From a bacterium (lineage in GTDB: Bacteria; UBP15; UBA6099), in assembly GCA_029564595.1 (NCBI GenBank), contig JAKQPS010000113.1, positions 248,001-312,000 of the forward strand: a stretch of DNA of 64,000 nt, given 5' to 3'. The notes beneath the pieces were generated by a model. It saw only the letters and a list, made by a program, of their open reading frames with translations. It was not told the origin of the DNA and ran no database searches. Positions 23,512-36,695 of this stretch are shown here, one piece after another; position 1 is the stretch's first letter, and every line of letters starts with the position of its first letter. Made by a program: the position numbers and the translations under genes.

Positions 23512-26226
23512 TCAATACTTGAGCATTTTCGCTGATTCGGAGCGGGGCGAAACGCGCGCGGCGCACACCTTGAGTTCGGGTATCTTGGCTATCGGATCGA
23601 GCGCGGAGTTTGTGAGCGCGTTGGCCGCCGCCTCGGCGAAATGGAAAGGTATGAAGATAGAGCCTGCGGGAACCGCGTCCGAAATGGCCGCCGCGATGCT
23701 TATCGCGCCTCGTCTTGATGTCACGTCGCAAAATTGTCCATCGGCGATACTAAGGTTTTCGGCGTCTGCGGGATTAATCTGGAAAAAAGCCTGCGGCACA
23801 TGCTCGTCGAGGGGCCGGGAGCGCCGGGTCATCGTCCCGGTGTGATAGTGATAAAGTATGCGTCCTGTGATGAGAGTCATCGGGTAATCGGCGTCGGGAA
23901 CCTCGTCGGGGCCGGAGAATTCGACCGACGCAAACTTGCCTTTTCCGCGAGTGAACGCGCCTGTGTGAAGTATGGGAGTTCCGGGATGCGACTTAGACGG
24001 ACAAGGCCAATGCACGGCCTCTCTATCGATGCGCTCATAGTCCACCCCGCCGTAGCTGGGCGTAAGAGACGCTATCTCCTCCATTATCCGCTCCGGGCTT
24101 TCATAGTCCATTCTATAGCCGAACCGCATCGCCAACTCGCCGATGATGCGCCAGTCCTGTTTGCTATCGCCGGGAGCCGCCACCGCCGCTCTTACTCGTT
24201 GAACGCGCCGCTCCGTGTTGGTGAAAGTTCCATCCTTCTCGGCAAAGCAGACGGCTGGAAGAACAACGTCCGCCAGTTTTGCGGTCTCTGTGAGAAATAT
24301 GTCCTGAACGATAAGCAAGTCCAATTTTTCCAAAGCTTTGCGCACATGGCCGGTGTCGGGGTCGGACACCATCGGGTTTTCGCCCATGATGTACATCGCT
24401 TTAATATCGCCTTTTATTGCGGCGCGCATCATTTCTGTGGCGGTCAGCCCGGCGGATTCAGGAAGTTCCGCTTTCCATGCGGCGGAGAACTTTTTCCTCG
24501 CGTCGGGATTGGAAACCTGCTGATATCCGGAAAAGACGTTGGGCAGAGCGCCCATGTCGCAGCTTCCCTGCACGTTGTTCTGGCCTCTGAGAGGATTGAC
24601 GCCTGTTCCGGGCTTGCCGATGTTGCCGGTCAGCATCGCAAGATTCGCGACGGACATGACGTTGTTCGTGCCGGAAGTGTGCTGCGTTATGCCCATTGAG
24701 TAAAGGATGGCGGCTTTTTCGGCTGTGGCGTAAACGCGAGCCGCGGCGCGCAGGTCGCCCGCCGGGATGCCAGTGATATTTTCCACATATTCCGGCGTGT
24801 ATTTCTTGACCGCCGCTTTCATTTCTTCAAAGCCTTCGGTGCGGGTCTCGATAAACGAGGCGTCCTGCAGCCCCTCGCTGATGATTACGTTGATGAATCC
24901 GTTTATCCAAGCGACATCCGAGCCGGATTTCTGGCGCAGGTGGATTTCCGCGATATCGCAAAGCTGGATGCGGCGAGGTTCTATGACAATAATCTTCGCG
25001 CCGCGCCTTGCCGCCTTTTTCACTTGAAGCGCGATTATCGGGTGCGTCTCGGTGGTGTTCGACCCGGTTATGAGTATGACGTCCGCCTGCGAGATGTCCG
25101 CGATGGTGTTGGTCATGGCTCCGCTGCCGAAGGATATCGCCAGCCCCGCGACTGTTGACGCGTGGCAGAGTCTCGCGCAGTGGTCCACATTGTTAGTGCC
25201 TATGACGGCGCGCATGAACTTCTGGAAAACATAGTTCTCTTCGTTCGTGCATCTTGCGGAAGCAAGCCCGGCTATCGAATCCGCGCCGCTCTCTCCTTGA
25301 ATGTCGCACAATCTTCTCGCCGCGAAATCCAAAGCCTTCTTCCATGTCGCTGGTTTCAATTCGCCGTCTTCTCTGACTAGAGGAACTGTCAAACGTTCGG
25401 GGCTATGGATGAAGCCGTAACCGAATCTTCCTTTCGAACATAGAGCGACGCCGTTCACGGGCGCGGAGGGATTGGATGTGACTTTCACAACTTTGCCGTC
25501 TTTGACGTTCAGGTCCAACTGGCAGCCGCAACCGCAATATGGGCAGGTGGTGGTTACTTTGTTGAGTTCCCACTCCCGCGCGACGCCCGCCGCGTCTCTT
25601 TCTCTCAAGGCCCCGGTAGGGCACGCCGCGACGCAGTTTCCGCAGAAGACGCATCCGGAATCCTTCATGTTTCTGTTCAATGGCGTTGAAATCATTGTAG
25701 CGAAGCCGCGATGGGCGAAATCGATTATGAAATCGCCTTGAATCTCCGCGCACGCGTTCACGCACCGTCCGCACAGGATGCATTTATTGTAGTCTCTCAC
25801 ATAGAACGGGTTGTCTCGGTGTTCGGGATAGTTGTAAATCGCGCCGCCTTTGAACCGCGTGTCCGAAACGCCGTATTCGTAGCAGTATTTCTGAAGCAGA
25901 CATTTGCCTGCCATATCGCAGGTCATACAGTCTTTGGGGTGAGCGGAAAGAAGCAGTTCAAGAACCATTTTTCTGGCTCGGACGACCCGCTCGGTTCCCG
26001 TCGAGACTTTCATGTCGGGGGAGACTTTGACCGCGCATGACGGCATAAGGGCGCGCTGGCCCTCAACCTCGACCACGCACAGCCTGCATGCGCCTGTCGG
26101 TTGAAGATATTCCGCGTGGCAAAGATGGGGAATGTCCACGCCGTTCGCTTGCGCGGCTTCGAGGATAGTCATGCCATCCCTTGCCGCCGCTTCCCGTCCA
26201 TCTATGAAGAAATTGATTTCATTCAT
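23512..26226 (-). CDS. Formate dehydrogenase catalytic subunit, cysteine type
   Basis: 904 residues; ATG 26226 behind GGAGGCAAAGGG. It interconverts formate and CO2 at a Mo/W bis-pyranopterin centre. Order: [2Fe-2S] domain (CHAEYLQPTGACRLC...SC), NuoG-like His/Cys cluster (HPKDCMTCDMAGKC), two [4Fe-4S] (CILCGRCVNAC, CVFCGNCVAACP), the cofactor-side [4Fe-4S] (CPYCGCGCQ...CSKGR), then the catalytic domain. The metal ligand is C354 in DHCARLCHAS, where the paralogue at 30914-33640 has selenocysteine. Last gene of an operon with NuoE- and NuoF-like subunits, giving a soluble NAD-linked, possibly electron-bifurcating, formate dehydrogenase. Confidence 0.92.
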   Translation of the reverse strand: MNEINFFIDGREAAARDGMTILEAAQANGVDIPHLCHAEYLQPTGACRLCVVEVEGQRALMPSCAVKVSPDMKVSTGTERVVRARKMVLELLLSAHPKDCMTCDMAGKCLLQKYCYEYGVSDTRFKGGAIYNYPEHRDNPFYVRDYNKCILCGRCVNACAEIQGDFIIDFAHRGFATMISTPLNRNMKDSGCVFCGNCVAACPTGALRERDAAGVAREWELNKVTTTCPYCGCGCQLDLNVKDGKVVKVTSNPSAPVNGVALCSKGRFGYGFIHSPERLTVPLVREDGELKPATWKKALDFAARRLCDIQGESGADSIAGLASARCTNEENYVFQKFMRAVIGTNNVDHCARLCHASTVAGLAISFGSGAMTNTIADISQADVILITGSNTTETHPIIALQVKKAARRGAKIIVIEPRRIQLCDIAEIHLRQKSGSDVAWINGFINVIISEGLQDASFIETRTEGFEEMKAAVKKYTPEYVENITGIPAGDLRAAARVYATAEKAAILYSMGITQHTSGTNNVMSVANLAMLTGNIGKPGTGVNPLRGQNNVQGSCDMGALPNVFSGYQQVSNPDARKKFSAAWKAELPESAGLTATEMMRAAIKGDIKAMYIMGENPMVSDPDTGHVRKALEKLDLLIVQDIFLTETAKLADVVLPAVCFAEKDGTFTNTERRVQRVRAAVAAPGDSKQDWRIIGELAMRFGYRMDYESPERIMEEIASLTPSYGGVDYERIDREAVHWPCPSKSHPGTPILHTGAFTRGKGKFASVEFSGPDEVPDADYPMTLITGRILYHYHTGTMTRRSRPLDEHVPQAFFQINPADAENLSIADGQFCDVTSRRGAISIAAAISDAVPAGSIFIPFHFAEAAANALTNSALDPIAKIPELKVCAARVSPRSESAKMLKY

Positions 26227-26241: not shown

Positions 26242-28092
26242 TCAGGACAGCTCGATGGCGTCAAACGGGCACACCGTATGGCACATCCCGCATTTGACGC
26301 ATTTCGCCTGATCAATTTTGTGGATTTCCTTTTTTTGCCCGGATATCGCGTTTGCAGGGCAAGACTCGGCGCACTTGTGGCACTTCTTGCATTTGTCTTC
26401 CGCCACCGTGTAAGTGAGAAGAGCCTTGCATTTGAGAGACGGGCATTTTTTCTGCTCGATGTGCGCCAGATATTCGTCCCTGAAATATTTCAGGGTGGTT
26501 ATCACCGGGTTGGGAGCGGTCTGCCCCAGCCCGCACAGCGAAGTGTCCTTCACTATGTCAGCCGTCTCTTCGAGCAGCGCCAAGTCTTCCATCGTTCCCT
26601 TGCCGTCGGTGATTCTCTCCAGCAGTTCCAGCATTCTCTTTGTTCCCATTCTGCAGGGAACGCATTTTCCGCAAGATTCGGACTGAGTGAACGTCATAAA
26701 ATATTTGGCGATATCGACGACGCAAGTGGACTCGTCCATGATAATCAGACCGCCGCTGCCCATAATCGCGCCGACTTTCGCAAGCGAATCGTAATCTATC
26801 GGGAGGTCCAAGAACTGTTCCGGGATGCAGCCGCCCGACGGCCCGCCTGTGAGAGCCGCCTTGAATTTTTTCCCGTTCGGGATGCCGCCGCCGACTTCGA
26901 ATATTATTTCCCTTAAAGTCATCCCCATCGGAGCTTCCACCAGCCCGGTGTTCCTTATCATCCCGGCGAGAGCAAACACCTTCGTGCCTTTGCTCTTTTC
27001 AGTTCCCATCGACGCGTACCAATCTGAGCCGTTCTCAATAATGGCGGCGACGTTGGCGAGAGTTTCCACATTGTTGATGCAGGTCGGATGTCCCCAAAGC
27101 CCGGACTGGATGGGGAACGGCGGGCGCACTCTGGGAGTCCCGCGTTTGCCTTCGATAGAGGCCATTAGAGCCGTCTCCTCGCCGCAAACGAAAGCCCCGG
27201 CTCCCTCTTTGATGTGAAGATCAAATGAGAAATTCGTCCCCAATATGTTGCGTCCCAGCAATCCAAGCTCTTCCATCTGCCGGAGTGCGATATTCAGATG
27301 AGCGATGGCGATGGGGTACTCTGCGCGAACATAGATATAACCTTCGTCGGCCCCTATCGCATAAGCGCCGATGAGCATGCCTTCGAGAACGGCGTGCGGG
27401 TCGCCCTCCAGCACAGCGCGGTCCATAAAAGCTCCGGGGTCGCCTTCGTCGGCGTTGCAAACAAGAAACTTCTTATCGCTCTTCTCTTTGTTGGCGAATC
27501 TCCATTTTAGCCCGGTTGGGAAACCAGCCCCGCCCCTGCCCCTCAGCCCGGATTTGAATATCTCCTCAACCACTTCCTCAGGTTTCATCGTCTCGAGCGC
27601 TTTCGAGAAAGCCGTGTACCCGCCCCTGCATATATAGTCGTCAATCTCTCTCGGATCGACCACGCCGCAATTCTTCAGAACCAACCGTTTCTGGTGGCTG
27701 TAGAAAGGAATTTCTTTTTCCTTGACGATTTTCTCCTGAGTCGCAGGATCCGCGAACAGCAGCCGTTCCACCGTTCTGCCGTTCACTACAGTTTCTTCAA
27801 CAATCTCCGCGGCGTCTTCCGGTTTCAGGTTTCCATAAAAAATATTGCCCGGCTCGACGACCGCCACCGGAGACATTGAACAAAAGCCGTGACAGCCGGT
27901 CTCGATGACTTTGAATTTTTTCTCCAGACCGCGTTTTTTCAGTTCGGCCTTGAGCGACTCGGAGAAAGCGTCGGCGCCCTTTGCGCGGCAGCCCGTCATA
28001 CACACCCTGATAGCGATCGCTTCGGAGTCTCGCTCCTTGTTCAACTTTTCGCGGTATTTGGCGATATCCTTGAATGTTTTAAAACGCGCCAT
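26242..28092 (-). CDS. NuoF/HydB-like NADH-binding flavoprotein subunit
   Basis: 616 residues. The N-terminal 110 residues are a thioredoxin-like [2Fe-2S] domain (RVCMTGCRAKGA, TGCHGFCSM). The central NuoF core binds FMN and NAD(H) (GLRGRGGAGFPTGLKW, NADEGDPGAFMDR, GAGAFVCGEETALM). Then comes the N3-type [4Fe-4S] (ESCGKCVPCRMGT...LCGLGQ), and the C-terminal 60 residues add two ferredoxin clusters (CKKCHKCAESCPANA, CVKCGMCHTVCPFDA). This is the architecture of HydB/HndC/HylB subunits in electron-bifurcating hydrogenases and formate dehydrogenases. It sits between the NuoE-like gene (4-base gap) and fdhA (15-base gap). NADH reaction is near certain; bifurcation is an inference. Confidence 0.93.
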   Translation of the reverse strand: MARFKTFKDIAKYREKLNKERDSEAIAIRVCMTGCRAKGADAFSESLKAELKKRGLEKKFKVIETGCHGFCSMSPVAVVEPGNIFYGNLKPEDAAEIVEETVVNGRTVERLLFADPATQEKIVKEKEIPFYSHQKRLVLKNCGVVDPREIDDYICRGGYTAFSKALETMKPEEVVEEIFKSGLRGRGGAGFPTGLKWRFANKEKSDKKFLVCNADEGDPGAFMDRAVLEGDPHAVLEGMLIGAYAIGADEGYIYVRAEYPIAIAHLNIALRQMEELGLLGRNILGTNFSFDLHIKEGAGAFVCGEETALMASIEGKRGTPRVRPPFPIQSGLWGHPTCINNVETLANVAAIIENGSDWYASMGTEKSKGTKVFALAGMIRNTGLVEAPMGMTLREIIFEVGGGIPNGKKFKAALTGGPSGGCIPEQFLDLPIDYDSLAKVGAIMGSGGLIIMDESTCVVDIAKYFMTFTQSESCGKCVPCRMGTKRMLELLERITDGKGTMEDLALLEETADIVKDTSLCGLGQTAPNPVITTLKYFRDEYLAHIEQKKCPSLKCKALLTYTVAEDKCKKCHKCAESCPANAISGQKKEIHKIDQAKCVKCGMCHTVCPFDAIELS

Positions 28093-28096
28093 GATA

Positions 28097-28588
28097 TTAT
28101 TCCTCCGGGTCGGGCGTCCCTGCGTCCGCGCCGCCGCCGATATATTTTTTCAATATCTTTCCCACCGTCTTCGGCGTCTGCTCGCCGTAATAATCCTTGT
28201 CTATCATTATGGCTGGAGCGAGAAAACAAGTGCCGAGGCAGGCCACTGTTTCAAGTTGGAAGTTCAGGTCTTCAGTCGGGTTTCCCGCCTTAACGCCCAG
28301 TTTTTCTTCGAGAGCCTGCAATGCCGCCCCGGCGCCGCGCACATGGCAGGCAGTGCCGACGCACACTTTAATCGTATGCTTGCCCCTCGGAGACAAATAA
28401 AACTGCGAATAGAAAGTCGCCACTCCGAAAACCCGGCTGAACGGGATTCCGAGTCCCTTTGAGACTTGTTCAAGAGTTTCCCCGGACAGGTATCCCATTT
28501 CGGCCTGCGCTTTCTGAAGAGCAGGGATAAGAGAACCGGGCTTTCCCCGGTATCGTTCGATAATTTCCGTCAATGCGCTTGTAGACAT
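28097..28588 (-). CDS. NuoE/HydC-like [2Fe-2S] subunit
   Basis: 163 residues from ATG 28588, behind AAAGGAG; an in-frame start 21 bases upstream overlaps the ribosome-binding site. Helical N-terminus (IPALQKAQAEMGYLS, VFGVATFYSQFYL) followed by a thioredoxin-like fold with four ligand cysteines (CVGTACHVRG and CLGTCFLAP). NuoE-type subunits pass electrons between the flavin subunit and the Fe-S chain. First gene of the NuoE-NuoF-FdhA operon; the 232-base gap upstream contains a minus-strand TATAAT (28678-28683) without a good -35. Confidence 0.95.
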   Translation of the reverse strand: MSTSALTEIIERYRGKPGSLIPALQKAQAEMGYLSGETLEQVSKGLGIPFSRVFGVATFYSQFYLSPRGKHTIKVCVGTACHVRGAGAALQALEEKLGVKAGNPTEDLNFQLETVACLGTCFLAPAIMIDKDYYGEQTPKTVGKILKKYIGGGADAGTPDPEE

Positions 28589-28820
28589 GATGTCGGCTCC
28601 TTTCGGCAAACGCGCGCGTCCGCCCCTTCAGCCGGGACTGCGCGCTGAAATCCACGCGCGTGAAATATCAAACATGGATTATATATCGATTGTTCACAGC
28701 GCTCACCCGGTTGAAACTTAATTCATTGCTTAATAATAGCGGAATTCCTTCTCCGCTTATCTAATGAGTATGATTTTATATCAAAAATACCGATATAGGA
28801 ACAGGGAAAACAAAGGATAA

Positions 28821-29204
28821 TTATCTATCGTTTTTAACATTCAGTTTTTCCACAGCGGTGAACACTTCTTCCGGTGTAAAAGGCTTGGGAATGAAATCGT
28901 CCGCTCCTAGTTTCATCGCCTCTACGGCTGTGTTTACGGTCGAATACCCGGTTATCACCACAACCGCGCAATCAGGATATCCTTTCTTTACACACTTTAC
29001 AAGCTCCAGTCCCGGCATGCCGGGCATCTTCAGATCAGTCAAAATCACGTCGTATTTTTCCGATCTGAGAACTCTCAGCGCCTCGTCGCCGGAAGATACG
29101 GTGGATATTTCATAGCGGTCGCTTTTCTCGCTGAATATATCTATGCAACTTTGCCGAACGACAATTTCATCGTCAACAATCAGCATTTTAATTTTTTTAG
29201 GCAT
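28821..29204 (-). CDS. Single-domain response regulator of the selenoprotein FDH operon
   Basis: 127 residues; ATG 29204 overlaps the kinase stop by eight bases, with GGAAGGGG upstream. CheY-like receiver with DD at 11-12, phospho-acceptor D57 (VILTDLKMPG), T in VVITGYS and K in FIPKPFTPEE. No output domain. Translational coupling to the haem-motif histidine kinase marks it as the kinase's direct partner. It could relay phosphate to the receiver protein encoded at the head of the operon (35644-36261) or to a distant regulator. Confidence 0.92.
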   Translation of the reverse strand: MPKKIKMLIVDDEIVVRQSCIDIFSEKSDRYEISTVSSGDEALRVLRSEKYDVILTDLKMPGMPGLELVKCVKKGYPDCAVVVITGYSTVNTAVEAMKLGADDFIPKPFTPEEVFTAVEKLNVKNDR

Positions 29205-30930
29205 TTGCAACCCCTTCCACAGGCAGTTTTACACAGAATGTCGACCCTTGTCCGACAACGCTTTTTACGGTGATATCGCCGTTGTGCCGCTTTACTATTC
29301 CAAAACAGATTGAAAGGCCCAACCCTGTGCCTTCAGTCGGTCCTTTCGTGGTGAAAAAAGGATCGAACAGTCGCTCCAGATTTTCGGCTGGAACTCCGCA
29401 TCCGGTGTCGGATAAAGAGACCTCCACAAAACTTCGGGGCGGAGCGACTTTCGATTCCACAACCGACAATCGCGATTCCACGCTCACTGTTCCTATTCCC
29501 TTCATCGCGTCTGCGGAATTAATAAGGAGATTCATAAACACCTGATGCATCTGTCCCCGGTCGACGTTCAATTCAGGCAAATCAGGCGCGAGGTCTTTTA
29601 ATATTTTTATGTTGTGAAAAGACTCCTGATTTTCCACAAGCGAAATCGCGCGGAGAATCACATCGTTGATTTTCGTCTGTGACTTTTCCGGAGTGGACTG
29701 CCGCGAAAATTCGAGAAGTCCCGCCACTATGTTGCGGCATCTTTTAGTTTCGTCAACCACGACGCTAAGCCACTTCTTTTCCTTTTCGCCTTCGACTCTT
29801 TCAAGAAGGAGCGAACTGTAGCTAAGGACGGCGGTGAGAGGATTGTTTATCTCGTGCGCTATCCCGGCGGAAAGTTGTCCCAGAGAAGCCAGCTTGACCG
29901 ACCTGACCAGCTTCATGTGCGTCTCGTCGTTAATGCGAGAGTAGATGTCCTCGAAGGTCGAGCCTGACTCCGGGTCTCTTCCCACGTATCCGGGGGCAAT
30001 GGGGCTTCTTTTAGAAATTGAATCTCCGTTCACTATTTCAGGAGCGACGGTGTCATAAGTCAGAAAACTCCTGTATCCGGATTCTTTCCTGAGCTTCTCG
30101 GCCATTCGGTTGAACGAACGAGAAAGTCTTCCGAATTCGTCGCTGGCGTACACAGGCACGCGCGTGTTGTAATTCCCTGCCGACACGTCTCTAACTCCTC
30201 CTAGCAGCGCCGTCATAGGACGTATCAGAAAGTAATACAGCATCGCCGCCAATGCGGTCATTATCGCGATGAAAGATGAGACTCCGAGGATAATCAGATG
30301 CCTTTTGATTCCAGCGATTTTATTATCCACGTCGGACAACGACATTGTGATATCGAAAAGGCCGAGAACTTTTTTGTCTCTCGGATGGTGGTCATGGCAC
30401 ATGAGGTAGCAACCTTCCTCATTGTAAATGGCCTGTGTGAGGCTAACAACCCGCCCTTCTCCGGATTTGGATTTGGAAATTCTCGCCCTGTCAGAAATTT
30501 CTATGTCTTCCAGCGGGGCGCCTCCCGCATGGCACACCGCGCACTGTTCGGCGTCTATGTCTATCGCGTCGCCAATCTCTCCGGAAACAGTGGATTTGCT
30601 GATCACGCCTCTTTTATCGAAAATTCTTATCGTCTCGATTTCATCGGATTGCTTGGCAATGTAGTCTATAGTCTCCTGAACTTTCTCTTTCGTGTTTTCG
30701 AGCATGTAGTTGCGAGTCGAGTATTTTACCGTTCCTGCTATGTTGTCGGCCCCGATAAGCACCTCGTCTATCAGTTGCTTCTCCTGCATGCTTATGTTGT
30801 AATACGTGCCTATCCCGATCAGCGCGGTAAGCGCGGCGCCGATAAAAATAAACAGTTTGAAGCCGAAGCTGCTGAAGTAAGGTTTCAGAGCGACAAATCT
30901 GTTTCGATATTTTTCAGCCTTTTTCAACAC
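29197..30930 (-). CDS. Sensor histidine kinase with periplasmic haem-c motifs
   Basis: 577 residues; GTG start at 30930, overlapping the end of fdhA by 17 bases. TM1 about 24-43, a periplasmic domain 44-210, TM2 about 211-236, HAMP 237-290, HisKA with His359 (GIAHEINNPLTAVLSY) and ATPase (NLLINSADAMKG, GTGLGLSICFGIVKRH). The periplasmic domain has a classical c-haem motif CAVCH (130-134) and a second CYLMCHDHH (174-182), a CxxxCH variant. It would therefore carry one or two covalent haems on the outer face and sense redox state or a gas or small ligand. Its position between a selenoprotein FDH and a receiver implies control of formate metabolism. Confidence 0.9.
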   Translation of the reverse strand: MLKKAEKYRNRFVALKPYFSSFGFKLFIFIGAALTALIGIGTYYNISMQEKQLIDEVLIGADNIAGTVKYSTRNYMLENTKEKVQETIDYIAKQSDEIETIRIFDKRGVISKSTVSGEIGDAIDIDAEQCAVCHAGGAPLEDIEISDRARISKSKSGEGRVVSLTQAIYNEEGCYLMCHDHHPRDKKVLGLFDITMSLSDVDNKIAGIKRHLIILGVSSFIAIMTALAAMLYYFLIRPMTALLGGVRDVSAGNYNTRVPVYASDEFGRLSRSFNRMAEKLRKESGYRSFLTYDTVAPEIVNGDSISKRSPIAPGYVGRDPESGSTFEDIYSRINDETHMKLVRSVKLASLGQLSAGIAHEINNPLTAVLSYSSLLLERVEGEKEKKWLSVVVDETKRCRNIVAGLLEFSRQSTPEKSQTKINDVILRAISLVENQESFHNIKILKDLAPDLPELNVDRGQMHQVFMNLLINSADAMKGIGTVSVESRLSVVESKVAPPRSFVEVSLSDTGCGVPAENLERLFDPFFTTKGPTEGTGLGLSICFGIVKRHNGDITVKSVVGQGSTFCVKLPVEGVANA

Positions 30931-33640
30931 GGACGGCGCAAACCTTCAATTCGGGAATTTTCGCCACAGGGTCGAGCGCGTCATTCGTAAGTCTGTTAAC
31001 CGGAGCCTCGCTGAAATGAAACGTCGTGAAAACAACCCCTTTTTCCACCATCCCTGACACGCGCGCGCGCAAACTGATTTCCCCTCTTCTGGAGGATACT
31101 TTCACCATATCGCCGTCCGACACTCCTAGACGTTCCGCGTCGGATGGATTAATCTCAAGTATTGCTTCTGGGGCGAGAATTTCGAGACTGGGACATTTGC
31201 GAGTCATCGTCCCCGTGTGGTAGTGATACTGAATGCGTCCGGTTGTCAGAATTATCGGGTATTTTTCATCCGTCAATTCCGCCGCCGGTTTGTAAGGAAT
31301 GGCGGTCATCAGACCTTTGCCGCGCTTGAAGCCTTCCGCGTGAAGGAACTCAGTGCCGGGATGATCGATGTCCGGACACGGCCACTGTATGCCGCCTTTC
31401 TCAAGACGGGAGTAACTTATACCGGCGTACGAGGGAACAACTCGTCTGATTTCGTTGAATATCTGCTCCGGAGACGCATAGTCCGCGGAGAATCCCATAA
31501 GCTGAAACAGGCGCTGGATTATTCTCCAATCAGGGTAACAGCTTCCGAGAGGCTGAACCGCCGCCCTAACGCGCTGCGCTCTGCGCTCGGTGTTTGTGAA
31601 AGTCCCGTCCTTTTCCGCCCAACTCGCGCCCGGAAGAACCACATCCGCTCTTGCGGCTGTTTCAGTCAGGAAAATATCCTGAACCACAAGGAAGTCGACT
31701 TTGTCCAACGCTTCCTCGATGTGGGTGATATTCGCGTCAGATAGCGCCGGGTTCTCGCCCATCACGTAAAGCGCTCGAATCTCCCCTTTCAAAATCGCCG
31801 GCATCATCTCTGTGACGGTTAATCCGGGTTTCGACGGCAGCGAATCGACGCCCCAGACGGCAGCGATTTTTCGCCTTGCCGAATCGTCCGCGACGCTCGC
31901 GTATCCCGGAAGCGAGCTTGGCAAAGCGCCCATGTCGCAAGCGCCTTGCACGTTGTTCTGTCCTCTTAACGGATTGACGCCTGTGCCGCGCCTGCCGACG
32001 TTGCCTGTGAGCATCGCCAGATTCGCCACCGATTTCACGGCGTCAGTTCCTGTGACATGCTGCGTTATTCCCATGGCGTATAAAAAAGTCGTTTTATCGG
32101 ATTTTCCTATCAGTTCGGCCACCGCAATCAGATCGGACGCCGGAATCCCCGTTATGCTCTCAACCAGTTCGGGAGTGTAACTTTCCACTTCTTGTGCCAG
32201 TTCTTCGAACCCTTCGCATCTTTCGTCGATATATTCTTTATTATGAAGATTGTTCTTGATAATCCAATGCATTATGCCGTTGAGCCAAGCGACATCCGTG
32301 CCGGGTTTCTGGCGAAGCCAGTAGTTCGCCTGTTCGACCAAATCTATGCGCCTCGGATCAGCCACCACGAGACGGGCGTCCCCCCGCTCTACCGCTCTCT
32401 TAATTCTCTGCGCGATTATGGGATGGTTCTCCGTTGTGTTGGTTCCCGTGATAACAATAACATCGGCCTCCTCGATTTCAGCAATCGAGTTGGTCATCGC
32501 GCCGCTTCCGAAGACTGTGGCCAGACCGGCCACGGTGGAAGCGTGTCAAAGCCGGGCGCAGTGATCGACGTTGTTCGAGCCGATCGCCTGCCTTATGAAC
32601 CTCTGAAAAAGATAGTTTTCCTCATTAGTGCATCTTGCGCTCGAAAGCCCCGCGATGGAATCCGGGCCGTGTTCCGCGATAGAGCGCCTGAATTCCCTCG
32701 CCACCCTCGTCAGGGCTTTCGTCCACGTCGTTTCTTCGAGTTCTCCCTTTTCATTCCTTATCAGCGGCTTGCTGAGGCGCTCCCCGCTATGTATGAACGC
32801 ATACCCGAATCTGCCCTTCGAGCACAGTCTTCCTTTGTTGACTCCCGTCGCGTCGTCAGTCGTCACCCCGACCACTTTGCCGTTTACAACGTTCAGTTCC
32901 AGCGAGCAACCGACTCCGCAGTACGCGCATGTCGTAGCCGTCTTTTCCGTTTCCCACGGCTTGCCCTTGCCGCCCCCCATGCGCTCTTCGATAGCGTTCA
33001 CCGGACATACTCTCATGCACTCTCCGCATGAGACGCAGCGCGAAGGGCTTTCAGGGTCGGCGAGAGCGGGCTGAATCGACGCCAGCGCCCCCGGACCCGC
33101 CATCGTTATCGCTCCGAGTCCCCTTATCTCCTTGCAGACTTTCACGCACCTTCCGCACAACACGCACCGCCTCGGATGATAGTCGAGTATCGGAGTCGAA
33201 AATTCCTTCCACGGATACTCCTCCGTCTTGATGCTGTAACTCCCGAAATCGTTCGGGGCGAGGTCGTACTCGTATGCGATATCCTGAAGCTCGCAATCGC
33301 CGTTTTTAGGACACGGCGAACAGTTCAACGGGTGATGCGCCAAGATCATCCTTATGACCTCGCGCCTCAGGTTAAAAAGCCTCTCCGAACGAGTCGCCAC
33401 TCTCATGCCGTCCAGAGCCTGAGTGTTGCAGGCGGTAGCCGGCCTGTCGACGCCTTCGACCTCCACCACGCACACCCTGCATGAGCCTATCGGGCTTAGA
33501 GCTTCGTGATAACAGAGCGTCGGGATTCTTACTCCCACCGCCCTTGCCGCTTCGAGTATGGTCGCCCCTTCCGGCGCTAATACCGTCTTCCCGTCGATCT
33601 CCAGTCGCACTTTCTTTTTCGTTTCGATGATTGTGGTCAT
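30914..33640 (-). CDS. Formate dehydrogenase catalytic subunit, selenocysteine type (TGA-decoded selenoprotein)
   Basis: 908 residues read through TGA 32546-32548 as selenocysteine 365. ATG 33640 behind GAGGAATAAAACA. Domains match the cysteine paralogue: [2Fe-2S] (CYHEALSPIGSCRVC...AC), His/Cys cluster (HHPLNCSPCPKNGDC), two [4Fe-4S] (CVLCGRCVKVC, CVSCGECMRVCP), CAYCGVGC...CSKGR, then the molybdopterin domain. The context VDHCARL-U-HASTVAGLA aligns with the paralogue's C354, and the frame continues as normal FDH sequence after the TGA. A SECIS hairpin follows. Sec ligates Mo or W and raises the turnover of FDHs. Conventional ORF calling gives two false genes, 32546-33640 and 30914-32533. The selA, selB and selC genes must lie elsewhere. 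Confidence 0.95.
32517..32533 (-). promoter_or_regulatory. Bacterial SECIS hairpin for selenocysteine insertion
   Basis: On the mRNA strand a perfect 6-bp stem GTGGCC/GGCCAC encloses the loop GGTCT. The loop begins 18 nucleotides after the UGA, the same loop sequence and distance as in Escherichia coli fdhF, where SelB binds. The cysteine paralogue lacks this loop at the same place. Confidence 0.92.
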
Positions 33641-33644
33641 TGTT

Positions 33645-35609
33645 TTATTCCTCTGTGGCGAACAACGCGATTCTGTAACAACGCAGGCATCTCTCCGCCT
33701 CTCTTATAGCTTCGTCGGGCTTTAATCCGCGCTCGATTTCGACAAAGTCCGAAGTCCTCTCGCGCGCCGGTCTCATTTCCAGCCGGCAACGCGCCTTGTT
33801 TCCAAGCCTGTTCACCGGCGCTTGCGGCAGGGACATCGTTTTGAGCAATCTGAACATCCTTTCCGCTTCGGGCATGCTCATCTTCTCTCCGCGCATCCTC
33901 TGATCCATACAATGGGCGACTCTCAATCCGTGTCCCATGGCGTCAATCAGAGCGGCGGGGCCGCTCACGCAGTCTCCTCCCGCGAACACCCTGTCCCTGC
34001 CCGTCATCATCGTGTTGTCGTCCACGGCGATAGTTCCCCACTTCGTGGTCTCTATTCCGCTTCCGTCGGACAGGAAAGAAAAGTCGGAGGATTGCCCTAT
34101 CGCCGGTATCACGATGTCGCACTCTATGAAAAAATCCGAGCCTTTGACTTCTACAGGCCGGCGACGGCCCGAAGCGTCGGGTTCCCCCAAGTCCATCTTC
34201 ACGCAGGTTATCCCCTTCACTTTGCCGGCCTCGGCGTCGATTCTTACCGGGTGCGTAAGAAATAGGAACTCCACGCCCTCTTCCATCGCGCCTTCTATTT
34301 CCTCGTGGTCCGCCGGCATTTCTTTCTGAGTGCGCCTGTACACCACGCTTACTTTTGAATATCCGAGCCGCACGGCGCTTCTCGCGCAGTCCATCGCAAC
34401 GTTGCCGCCTCCCACAACCACGACTCTGGTTCCTTCGGGAGGCTTGAACTCTCCGATGTGATGCAGAAGATTGAGGTCGCGCAGAAAAGTCACTCCCGCC
34501 ACATACCCTTCCGAATTAGCGTCTTCTCCCTCCATTCCCACGCTTTTGCTGCCGTGCGCTCCGACGGAGATCAGGACGCTGTCGTATTCCGTCTCAAGTT
34601 GGCTGAGAGACAAATCCCTTCCCAGCCGCTTGCCGTAATGAAACTTCACTCCGATTTCGGATATCCGCCTGACTTCCGAACTGATAACGTCGCGAGGCAG
34701 CCTGTAGTCGGGAATCCCCACCGCGCTCATACCGCCCGGCTCCCGCAGGTCTTCGAATATATGGACTTCATGCCCCTTGCGCTTGAGATAAAAAGCGGCG
34801 GTAAGCCCGCAAGGCCCGGCTCCTATAATCGCCGCTTTCTTTCCGCTTGCGGACGGAATTTCTTCCAGCGGCTTGGACCTTGCCGAGACGTAAGACACTA
34901 TCTGATCATTGACGAATCTTTTCAGGTGTTTGATTGAAATCGCCTCGTCAAGCTCTTCGCGGCGGCAGACGAATTCGCAAGGCCTGACGCAGACTCGCCC
35001 GCAGACTCCCGCGAGCGGATTTTTCCTGCCGATTATCGCAAGGCTTTCATAGTAGTTCCCGCTTCTGATTGCGTCCACATATTCCGGAATATCCAGATGA
35101 GCCGGGCAGGCTTCAATGCAGGGAGCGGTTGCCATCGCCCTGTAGTTTCCTCGCTTCACAGGCGCGCGTCCCGCGACCGCCTCCTCAAAAGCTTCAGGCG
35201 CCAGTTCCATCATCTTGAGCAAAGCAGTCATGGATGTGTGGCCCAGTTCGCACATGGAGGCGTCCCGGATGACCGCCGCCATGGACCGTATGGCGTCAAT
35301 GTCCTCGCGCCGCCCGTGCCCGTCCGCCAACGCGGCCAGCTTCTCGGCCACTACTTTCGTGCCCACTCTGCACGGAGTGCAGTATCCGCAACTTTCCTCC
35401 TGCGCTTTTTCGACGTACGCCCTAGCCATGTCCACGACGGGCGCGTCGCGATCAAAAAGAAAAAAGCCGTCCCATCCCATGAATGCCAGAATGTCGTTGC
35501 CGCTCTCGAATTCCTTCAATCCTTTGAACGCTTCCGGAATCGCCGACTTCTTAAGTCCCCGGTTGTCCGTCACATCGTCCCGCCAACTGCCTAAGATAAC
35601 TTTCGCCAT
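33645..35609 (-). CDS. Electron-transfer subunit: NuoF C-terminal Fe-S domain fused to a GltD-like NADPH flavoprotein
   Basis: 654 residues; ATG 35609 with GGAGAATCTTG upstream. Residues about 65-150 match only the C-terminal [4Fe-4S] part of NuoF (ESCGYCTPCRVGT...CELGHTS); the FMN/NAD domain is absent. From about 160 it is like glutamate synthase small chain/NfnB: Fe-S domain (CIEACPAHLDIPEYV, GVCGRVCVRPCEFVC), FAD site (IIGAGPCGLTAAFYL), pyridine-nucleotide site (VVVVGGGNVAMDCARSA) and C-terminal AGGDCVSGPAALIDAM. It should link the selenoprotein FDH (4-base gap downstream) to NADPH or NADH, as in NADP-dependent FDHs of acetogens. The cofactor is inferred. Confidence 0.85.
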   Translation of the reverse strand: MAKVILGSWRDDVTDNRGLKKSAIPEAFKGLKEFESGNDILAFMGWDGFFLFDRDAPVVDMARAYVEKAQEESCGYCTPCRVGTKVVAEKLAALADGHGRREDIDAIRSMAAVIRDASMCELGHTSMTALLKMMELAPEAFEEAVAGRAPVKRGNYRAMATAPCIEACPAHLDIPEYVDAIRSGNYYESLAIIGRKNPLAGVCGRVCVRPCEFVCRREELDEAISIKHLKRFVNDQIVSYVSARSKPLEEIPSASGKKAAIIGAGPCGLTAAFYLKRKGHEVHIFEDLREPGGMSAVGIPDYRLPRDVISSEVRRISEIGVKFHYGKRLGRDLSLSQLETEYDSVLISVGAHGSKSVGMEGEDANSEGYVAGVTFLRDLNLLHHIGEFKPPEGTRVVVVGGGNVAMDCARSAVRLGYSKVSVVYRRTQKEMPADHEEIEGAMEEGVEFLFLTHPVRIDAEAGKVKGITCVKMDLGEPDASGRRRPVEVKGSDFFIECDIVIPAIGQSSDFSFLSDGSGIETTKWGTIAVDDNTMMTGRDRVFAGGDCVSGPAALIDAMGHGLRVAHCMDQRMRGEKMSMPEAERMFRLLKTMSLPQAPVNRLGNKARCRLEMRPARERTSDFVEIERGLKPDEAIREAERCLRCYRIALFATEE

Positions 35610-35643: not shown

Positions 35644-36261
35644 TCACCAGATTTCCGATTCTAATCTCCGGGCCATCGTCATCATCTGTTTATCCGTGAG
35701 CTTTCCGACGTTTTCCTCAATCCATTTCACATCTCCGGTCGCTATCGCCGTTTTCGCTTCGGAACTGATGTCGTAATCTTTCAGAGCCTCCGAGCCTTCC
35801 ATGTACAGCCGGTCAAAAAAGTCCGGGTCGTCGGATGTCCTGTCCAGAATCTCCAGCACGAGGGTCTCGCGCATTGATTTCTTCGGATCCTTCGCTCCGA
35901 TTGCCTGAGACACCGCGTTCCTAAGTTCTTCGGGAGTGAATGGTTTAGGGATATAGTCGTAGGCGCCGAGTTTCATAAATTCTCTTGCGGTGTCCATAGA
36001 TGGATAGCCCGTTATTACGATAACCGTTAATCGGGGATTTGTTTTTCTGATCCGTCTTACGACTTCGACGCCGTTCAGTTCAGGCATCATAATGTCTGTT
36101 ATGAAAAGATCGATGCCTCCCGCCGAAGCAATATCTATGCATTCCGCGGGCGATGTGCTTGTGATTATCTCAAGTCCGGTTTCCTCCAGTATTTCCCTGC
36201 ATGTGTTAAGAATCACTTCCTCATCGTCAAGCACAAGCGCTTTTTTTGCTGTCTCTTCCAT
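35644..36261 (-). CDS. Response regulator with a small helical C-terminal domain
   Basis: 205 residues from ATG 36261 (AGGAGG with 7-base spacing; an in-frame ATG 30 bases upstream is less likely). Receiver 1-125: LDDEE, phospho-acceptor D56 (LFITDIMMPE), T in VIVITGYPS and K in YIPKPFTPEE. Residues about 135-205 (DPDFFDRLYMEGSEALKDY, then SSEAKTAIATGD and NVGKLT) are not a DNA-binding domain. They look like the small helical domain of LigA-type dioxygenase subunits or nitrile-hydratase-leader-like proteins. First gene of the selenoprotein FDH operon, 34 bases ahead of the NuoF/GltD fusion. Probably a partner of the operon's kinase, with an output by protein binding. Confidence 0.85.
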   Translation of the reverse strand: MEETAKKALVLDDEEVILNTCREILEETGLEIITSTSPAECIDIASAGGIDLFITDIMMPELNGVEVVRRIRKTNPRLTVIVITGYPSMDTAREFMKLGAYDYIPKPFTPEELRNAVSQAIGAKDPKKSMRETLVLEILDRTSDDPDFFDRLYMEGSEALKDYDISSEAKTAIATGDVKWIEENVGKLTDKQMMTMARRLESEIW

Positions 36262-36695
36262 GATGCTTTCCTCCTGTTTTTGATAAATCATCGATGTTAT
36301 TCAATTAACACATAAACAGGAAACGCGTTGATTGGCGATAATCACACATCTCGCGCGTTCCCGCATCCCGGACACGCTTAATTAACGCATTGCCGGGTTT
36401 CTTCTCTGTTGTTCACCGCGATCGATTGAGTTCTATTTCGTTTTTTGCTTTTTTAGTTCGACCGCAGCAGCGCCACTTCACCTGTTCGCAATCATATCAA
36501 AGGCATCATTGAAGTGTCAAGAACGCGTTTTTCGCGACTTTTAACACCCTTTTCGCATCTATAGCTCTAGCCTATATCCGCTTGTATAATGTTGTTGATA
36601 TATTATGGCAATTGTAATCTGATTATTGATCGCACATCATGTCGGCGATTAGAATCAACATTGAATGAGAGTTGATAGGAAAAGAGCGGGATAAA
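36262..36695. other. Divergent intergenic region between the FDH operon and a GT2 gene
   Basis: Over 430 bases without a supported gene. It must hold the promoter of the selenoprotein FDH operon (minus) and of the GT2 gene (plus). A plus-strand TATAAT lies at 36585-36590 without a convincing -35, and no clear sigma-54 -24/-12 site was found on either strand. Confidence 0.5.

Follow-up and report, generated by a model that had tools for sequence, protein, structure and literature searches.

The minus-strand interval 33640-30914 of the window (the whole 64,000-nucleotide stretch that was analysed) is, with a probability of about 0.97, a single intact selenocysteine formate dehydrogenase (FDH) gene, fdhA(Sec), whose in-frame TGA is read as selenocysteine (Sec) through SelB and a SECIS hairpin. 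In the ORF listing it appears as exactly two collinear ORFs that share a frame, one of 364 aa at 32546-33640 that the TGA terminates and one of 539 aa at 30914-32533 that starts at an internal GTG. Translated with the TGA as U, the frame has 908 codons; codon 365 is the U of the motif VDHCARL-U-HASTVAGLA, and codon 909 is an ordinary TGA terminator. The read-through protein scores 869.6 bits against the NCBIfam model TIGR01591 (Fdh-alpha), which has a cut-off of 666.25; the match takes in the entire profile (1-672 of 672) and spans residues 236-905 with no shift. It can be aligned end to end with solved FDH alpha chains, the best being 9wxb and 6tg9, and its domains are, in order, Fer2_4, NADH-G_4Fe-4S_3, Fer4, Molybdop_Fe4S4, Molybdopterin and Molydop_binding. 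Formate oxidation or CO2 reduction is the activity predicted from the family. The original prediction had proposed one FDH gene hidden as two ORFs, and both ORFs were recovered, with the TIGR01591 match continuous across the TGA. Its claim that automatic gene calling splits the gene holds for the mechanical ORFs.

Table 1. Features of the fdhA(Sec) neighbourhood, in minus-strand order
Feature	Position	Strand	Description or basis
Response-regulator receiver protein, 215 aa, start of gene run	35644..36291	minus	
FGltD: NuoF C-terminal Fe-S domain fused to GltD/NfnB-like FAD-NAD(P)H domain	33645..35609	minus	
fdhA(Sec)	30914..33640	minus	Formate dehydrogenase alpha subunit; NuoG-like [2Fe-2S]/4Fe-4S N-terminal part and molybdopterin catalytic part
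In-frame TGA, codon 365, read as selenocysteine	32546..32548	minus	Molybdenum/tungsten ligand position; aligned with E. coli FdhF codon 140
bSECIS element, TGA and stem-loop, GGUCU apical loop	32504..32548	minus	E. coli fdhF register; covariation in Sec homologues only
Sensor histidine kinase (HAMP-HisKA-HATPase)	29197..30930	minus	CAVCH and CYLMCH heme-c-like motifs
Stand-alone response regulator, 129 aa	28821..29210	minus	
NuoE-like [2Fe-2S] thioredoxin-fold subunit	28097..28609	minus	
NuoF-like FMN/NAD subunit with extra ferredoxin domains	26242..28092	minus	
fdhA(Cys), CARL-C-HASTVAGLA	23512..26226	minus	Cys at Sec position; 54% identical to fdhA(Sec)

Alignment with fdhF of Escherichia coli K-12, which encodes formate dehydrogenase H, sets the TGA against the TGA at codon 140 of that gene, within equivalent motifs (CARV-U-HGPSVAGL in E. 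coli, CARL-U-HASTVAGLA here), and the Sec ligand is followed by His in FdhA(Sec) as in the Sec140-His141 pair of E. coli. Full-length homologues from the genome collection carry either TGA or a Cys codon in the codon-365 column, the exception being one distant Ser paralogue, and most of the fetched homologues, with many phyla represented, have TGA. The Sec140 alignment and the TGA/Cys homologues confirm that the TGA falls, as claimed, exactly at the metal-ligand position. A search of E. coli DNA with the locus gave no nucleotide-level match, and FdhA(Sec) differs from the E. coli enzyme in having about 230 additional residues at its N-terminus, which form a NuoG-like Fe-S part. Locus L044 of genome G006, an FDH-like NuoG-type paralogue adjoined by nuoE and nuoF, has Ser at the Sec/Cys position (NVSSSARM-S-TSPN), a site that probably has no metal ligand. 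The same-genus metagenome-assembled genome (MAG) G001 has additional FDH homologues that carry an in-frame TGA: L043 (G001:C630:8039-10717), 47% identical to fdhA(Sec), and L045 (G001:C286).

The RNA downstream of the codon folds, as had been proposed, into a 6-bp stem with a GGUCU loop at the distance of the E. coli fdhF SECIS (folding z = -2.7). Counted from the U of the UGA, the stem pairs nt 16-21 with nt 27-32 and the 5-nt loop occupies nt 22-26; the register is identical to that of E. coli fdhF, with which it shares U17 and the loop sequence, and the stem sequence is different. Rfam at the gathering score found no match within the 64-kb window, and in a permissive scan SECIS_3 matched 32493-32551 of the minus strand at E = 3.9e-7 and 37.1 bits, below its gathering score of 63. 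The two strands of the window together contain 2115 TGA triplets, and this is the only one after which a complete 6-bp stem follows in the same register with G23 and U24; from the all-position rate (25/127,912) about 0.4 would be expected. Taken by itself the hairpin is therefore modest evidence, and what counts is its position at the predicted TGA.

Pair 18:30 of the hairpin, in which both bases are third codon positions, is paired in 74 of 74 distinct TGA-bearing homologues by five combinations (GC 50, CG 9, AT 7, TA 5, GT 3), and pair 21:27 is likewise paired in all 74, by four pair types; the shuffle means are 46 and 60, and none of 2000 shuffles reaches 74 for either pair, statistics that ignore the relatedness of the homologues. 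The contrast between the Sec and Cys classes is independent of relatedness: among 31 Cys homologues the same pairs form in only 48% (18:30) and 55% (21:27), and the loop at nt 22-26, which is GGUCU in nearly all Sec homologues, is variable. Compensatory changes preserve the stem in the Sec homologues, and the Cys class shows no such covariation.

The host genome, a MAG of 203 contigs (97% complete, 1.2% contamination), encodes the machinery that such a codon needs. Contig C79 carries selC (tRNA-Sec, C79:49198-49290, 66.7 bits and above the cut-off, also called tRNA-SeC with anticodon tca by ARAGORN), selA (C79:61012-62352, 514.7 bits) and selD (L018, C79:62480-63400 of G000, 359.3 bits), and contig C92 carries selB as a 663-aa frame (346.6 bits); all three protein genes score over their curated cut-offs. 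The window itself lies on another contig, C131, which in a MAG of many contigs counts somewhat against the case. The expectation that the host decodes UGA as Sec with selABCD located elsewhere has been answered by finding all four genes. The host selD is a selenoprotein gene itself, with an in-frame TGA in GCAG-U-AAK at the usual Sec position, and the FdhD maturation protein is also encoded. In the other MAGs of the genus, selB is over the cut-off in three of three and selC was found in one of three; one MAG of the same family has both. The search for selC found none in G003, a same-genus MAG that is 92% complete, and this too is a point against.

Could the TGA be a genuine stop? The gene would then be a nonsense-mutated pseudogene, or would give two separate proteins, translation ending at the TGA and starting anew at the downstream GTG, and the two ORFs of mechanical calling agree with that. 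Against this stand the exact coincidence of the TGA with the Sec/Cys site of homologues from many phyla, the covarying SECIS limited to TGA-bearing homologues, the complete sel machinery and purifying selection on the codons that follow: in three comparisons among MAGs of the genus, synonymous to nonsynonymous changes after the TGA stand at 59:12, 57:13 and 69:10, and change before the TGA is also dominated by synonymous substitutions. A genuine stop is therefore highly improbable. An error for TGC or TGT, which would leave an ordinary Cys enzyme, draws some plausibility from the fact that only MAG data underlie the sequence and that a Cys paralogue lies 5 kb away. The TGA is nevertheless present at this codon in three MAGs of the genus; G001 and G003 have it together with a 45-nt SECIS stretch identical to that of fdhA(Sec), and the record MWCD01000004, probably the same genome as G003, has the TGA as well. 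The hairpin bases, moreover, fit the Sec class and not the Cys class, and an error is extremely improbable. TGA in three genus MAGs and mostly synonymous change on both sides make error or decay unlikely, and the sequencing error named in the original prediction as what would overturn it does not fit the TGA seen in the genus MAGs and in homologues from many phyla. Genome-wide reassignment of UGA to another residue such as Trp or Gly is compatible with an in-frame TGA taken by itself, but the homologous residue is Cys or TGA and never Trp or Gly (Ser in one far paralogue), fdhA(Sec) itself ends at the TGA of codon 909, and tRNA-Sec and selB are present; the odds of this reading are vanishingly small.

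Decoding of fdhA(Sec) as a selenoprotein gene would follow the E. coli model. SelB-dependent Sec insertion is established for E. coli fdhF, and by analogy SelB carrying Sec-tRNA(Sec) would bind the hairpin just 3' of the UGA at codon 365 and insert selenocysteine. The Sec would then ligate the Mo or W of the bis-PGD cofactor in a soluble alpha subunit, from which electrons may exit through the NuoG-like Fe-S N-terminal part; FGltD, encoded immediately upstream, probably hands them on to NAD(P). Gene structure, SECIS and the sel genes are seen directly in the sequence; SelB decoding at this codon, metal ligation and the choice of partner, for which FGltD is the likely candidate, are suggested by family knowledge and gene order.

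Of 75 Sec-using bacteria, 67 have FdhA, the most widespread of the bacterial selenoproteins, and conversion of Sec to Cys is well described for its family (PMC1794560). A Sec FdhA, the commonest bacterial selenoprotein, is thus a real but ordinary finding. What surrounds the gene is less so: the paralogue pair and the complex I link described below are more interesting than the TGA. The minus-strand run comprises, in order, a response regulator, FGltD, fdhA(Sec), a histidine kinase, a second response regulator, nuoE, nuoF and fdhA(Cys), so that Sec and Cys FDH paralogues share one genome neighbourhood. The FGltD stop lies 4 bp ahead of the fdhA(Sec) start codon, and the start of the histidine kinase overlaps the fdhA(Sec) end. 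The sensor part of this kinase has CxxCH and CxxxCH motifs, and among the loci examined such a kinase directly beside an FDH occurs only in this genus.

A quick maximum-likelihood FDH tree, built with column 365 left out, places the two paralogues in different clades. The clade of fdhA(Sec) (SH-aLRT 97) contains L047, L048, L049, L052 and L065, all five with FGltD directly upstream; fdhA(Cys) is placed with less support (91), beside a Cys gene from the same order with nuoF upstream of it. Sec, Cys and Ser labels switch at least 13 times on the tree. A recent duplication of fdhA(Sec) as the source of fdhA(Cys) was considered and rejected on the clades, and different clades with different partners indicate that the two FDHs are old separate lineages brought together. 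The arrangement of fdhA(Cys), with nuoE-nuoF just upstream, matches that of NAD-dependent FDHs of the FdhA-NuoE-NuoF type (FdsABG / HylABC), whereas fdhA(Sec) is adjoined by FGltD and not by NuoEF.

In four members of the Sec clade, from Thermodesulfobacteriota, 'Deltaproteobacteria' and Methylomirabilis MAGs (L047, L048, L049, L065), the FGltD-FdhA pair, alike in two-gene order, Sec site and clade, sits between nuoABCD and nuoH onward; the nuo genes of L049 were confirmed by Pfam. L052 is a 4-kb contig on which nothing is visible beyond the pair. The position of the pair in place of NuoEFG suggests a formate-oxidising complex I. The host genome differs from these operons in that NuoD (PF00346) and NuoH (PF00146) found no match in it, so the FGltD-FdhA(Sec) pair here is without complex I; loss of these genes through MAG incompleteness is unlikely at 97% completeness. 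At L050, nuoABCD lies beside a Sec FDH with no FGltD.

A second parallel is the StnABC transhydrogenase of Sporomusa, in which StnC combines GltD with a NuoG/FdhF-like domain whose FdhF part is inactive (PMC10482914). FGltD matches the GltD part of StnC (PDB 8oh5 chain C) and FdhA the NuoG/FdhF part, but the parts that StnC joins in one chain are two genes here, and the FDH site has Sec and is intact. From the resemblance of FGltD to the GltD part, coupling of formate oxidation or CO2 reduction to NADP(H) would be expected as a putative function. A bolder proposal takes FGltD and Sec FdhA, perhaps with the nearby NuoE/NuoF, as a formate-driven relative of the Stn-type bifurcating transhydrogenase, with a live FDH site where that of StnC is dead, the module having come from a formate-oxidising complex I and the heme-motif two-component system choosing between the Sec and Cys enzymes; as a whole this is a long shot.

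Are the two FDHs selenium-dependent alternatives, switched by the intervening two-component genes? Both genes run in the same direction with a histidine kinase, a response regulator and nuoEF between them, in the window and in the genus record L075. Sec and Cys FDHs are found in one neighbourhood in Acetobacterium woodii (fdhF1/fdhF2) and Treponema primitia (fdhFcys/fdhFsec), selenium regulation of the pair being known in T. primitia and proposed in A. woodii (PMC6288185). In A. woodii the two copies share 80% identity and work in a single HDCR complex (PMC6288185), in contrast to the 54% identity, different clades and different neighbours of the present copies, each with its own partner (FGltD for Sec, NuoEF for Cys), which may belong to two different complexes and not be interchangeable subunits. 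A selenium switch is accordingly a doubtful addition, though one with some chance of being right.

With fdhA(Sec) read as one selenoprotein gene, the gene model is corrected from two fragments to one 908-residue selenoenzyme, and an uncultured genus can be taken to decode UGA as Sec. Of wider value is the neighbourhood, where a Sec/Cys FDH pair occurs with different partner modules and, through related sequences, Sec FDHs are linked to complex I operons.
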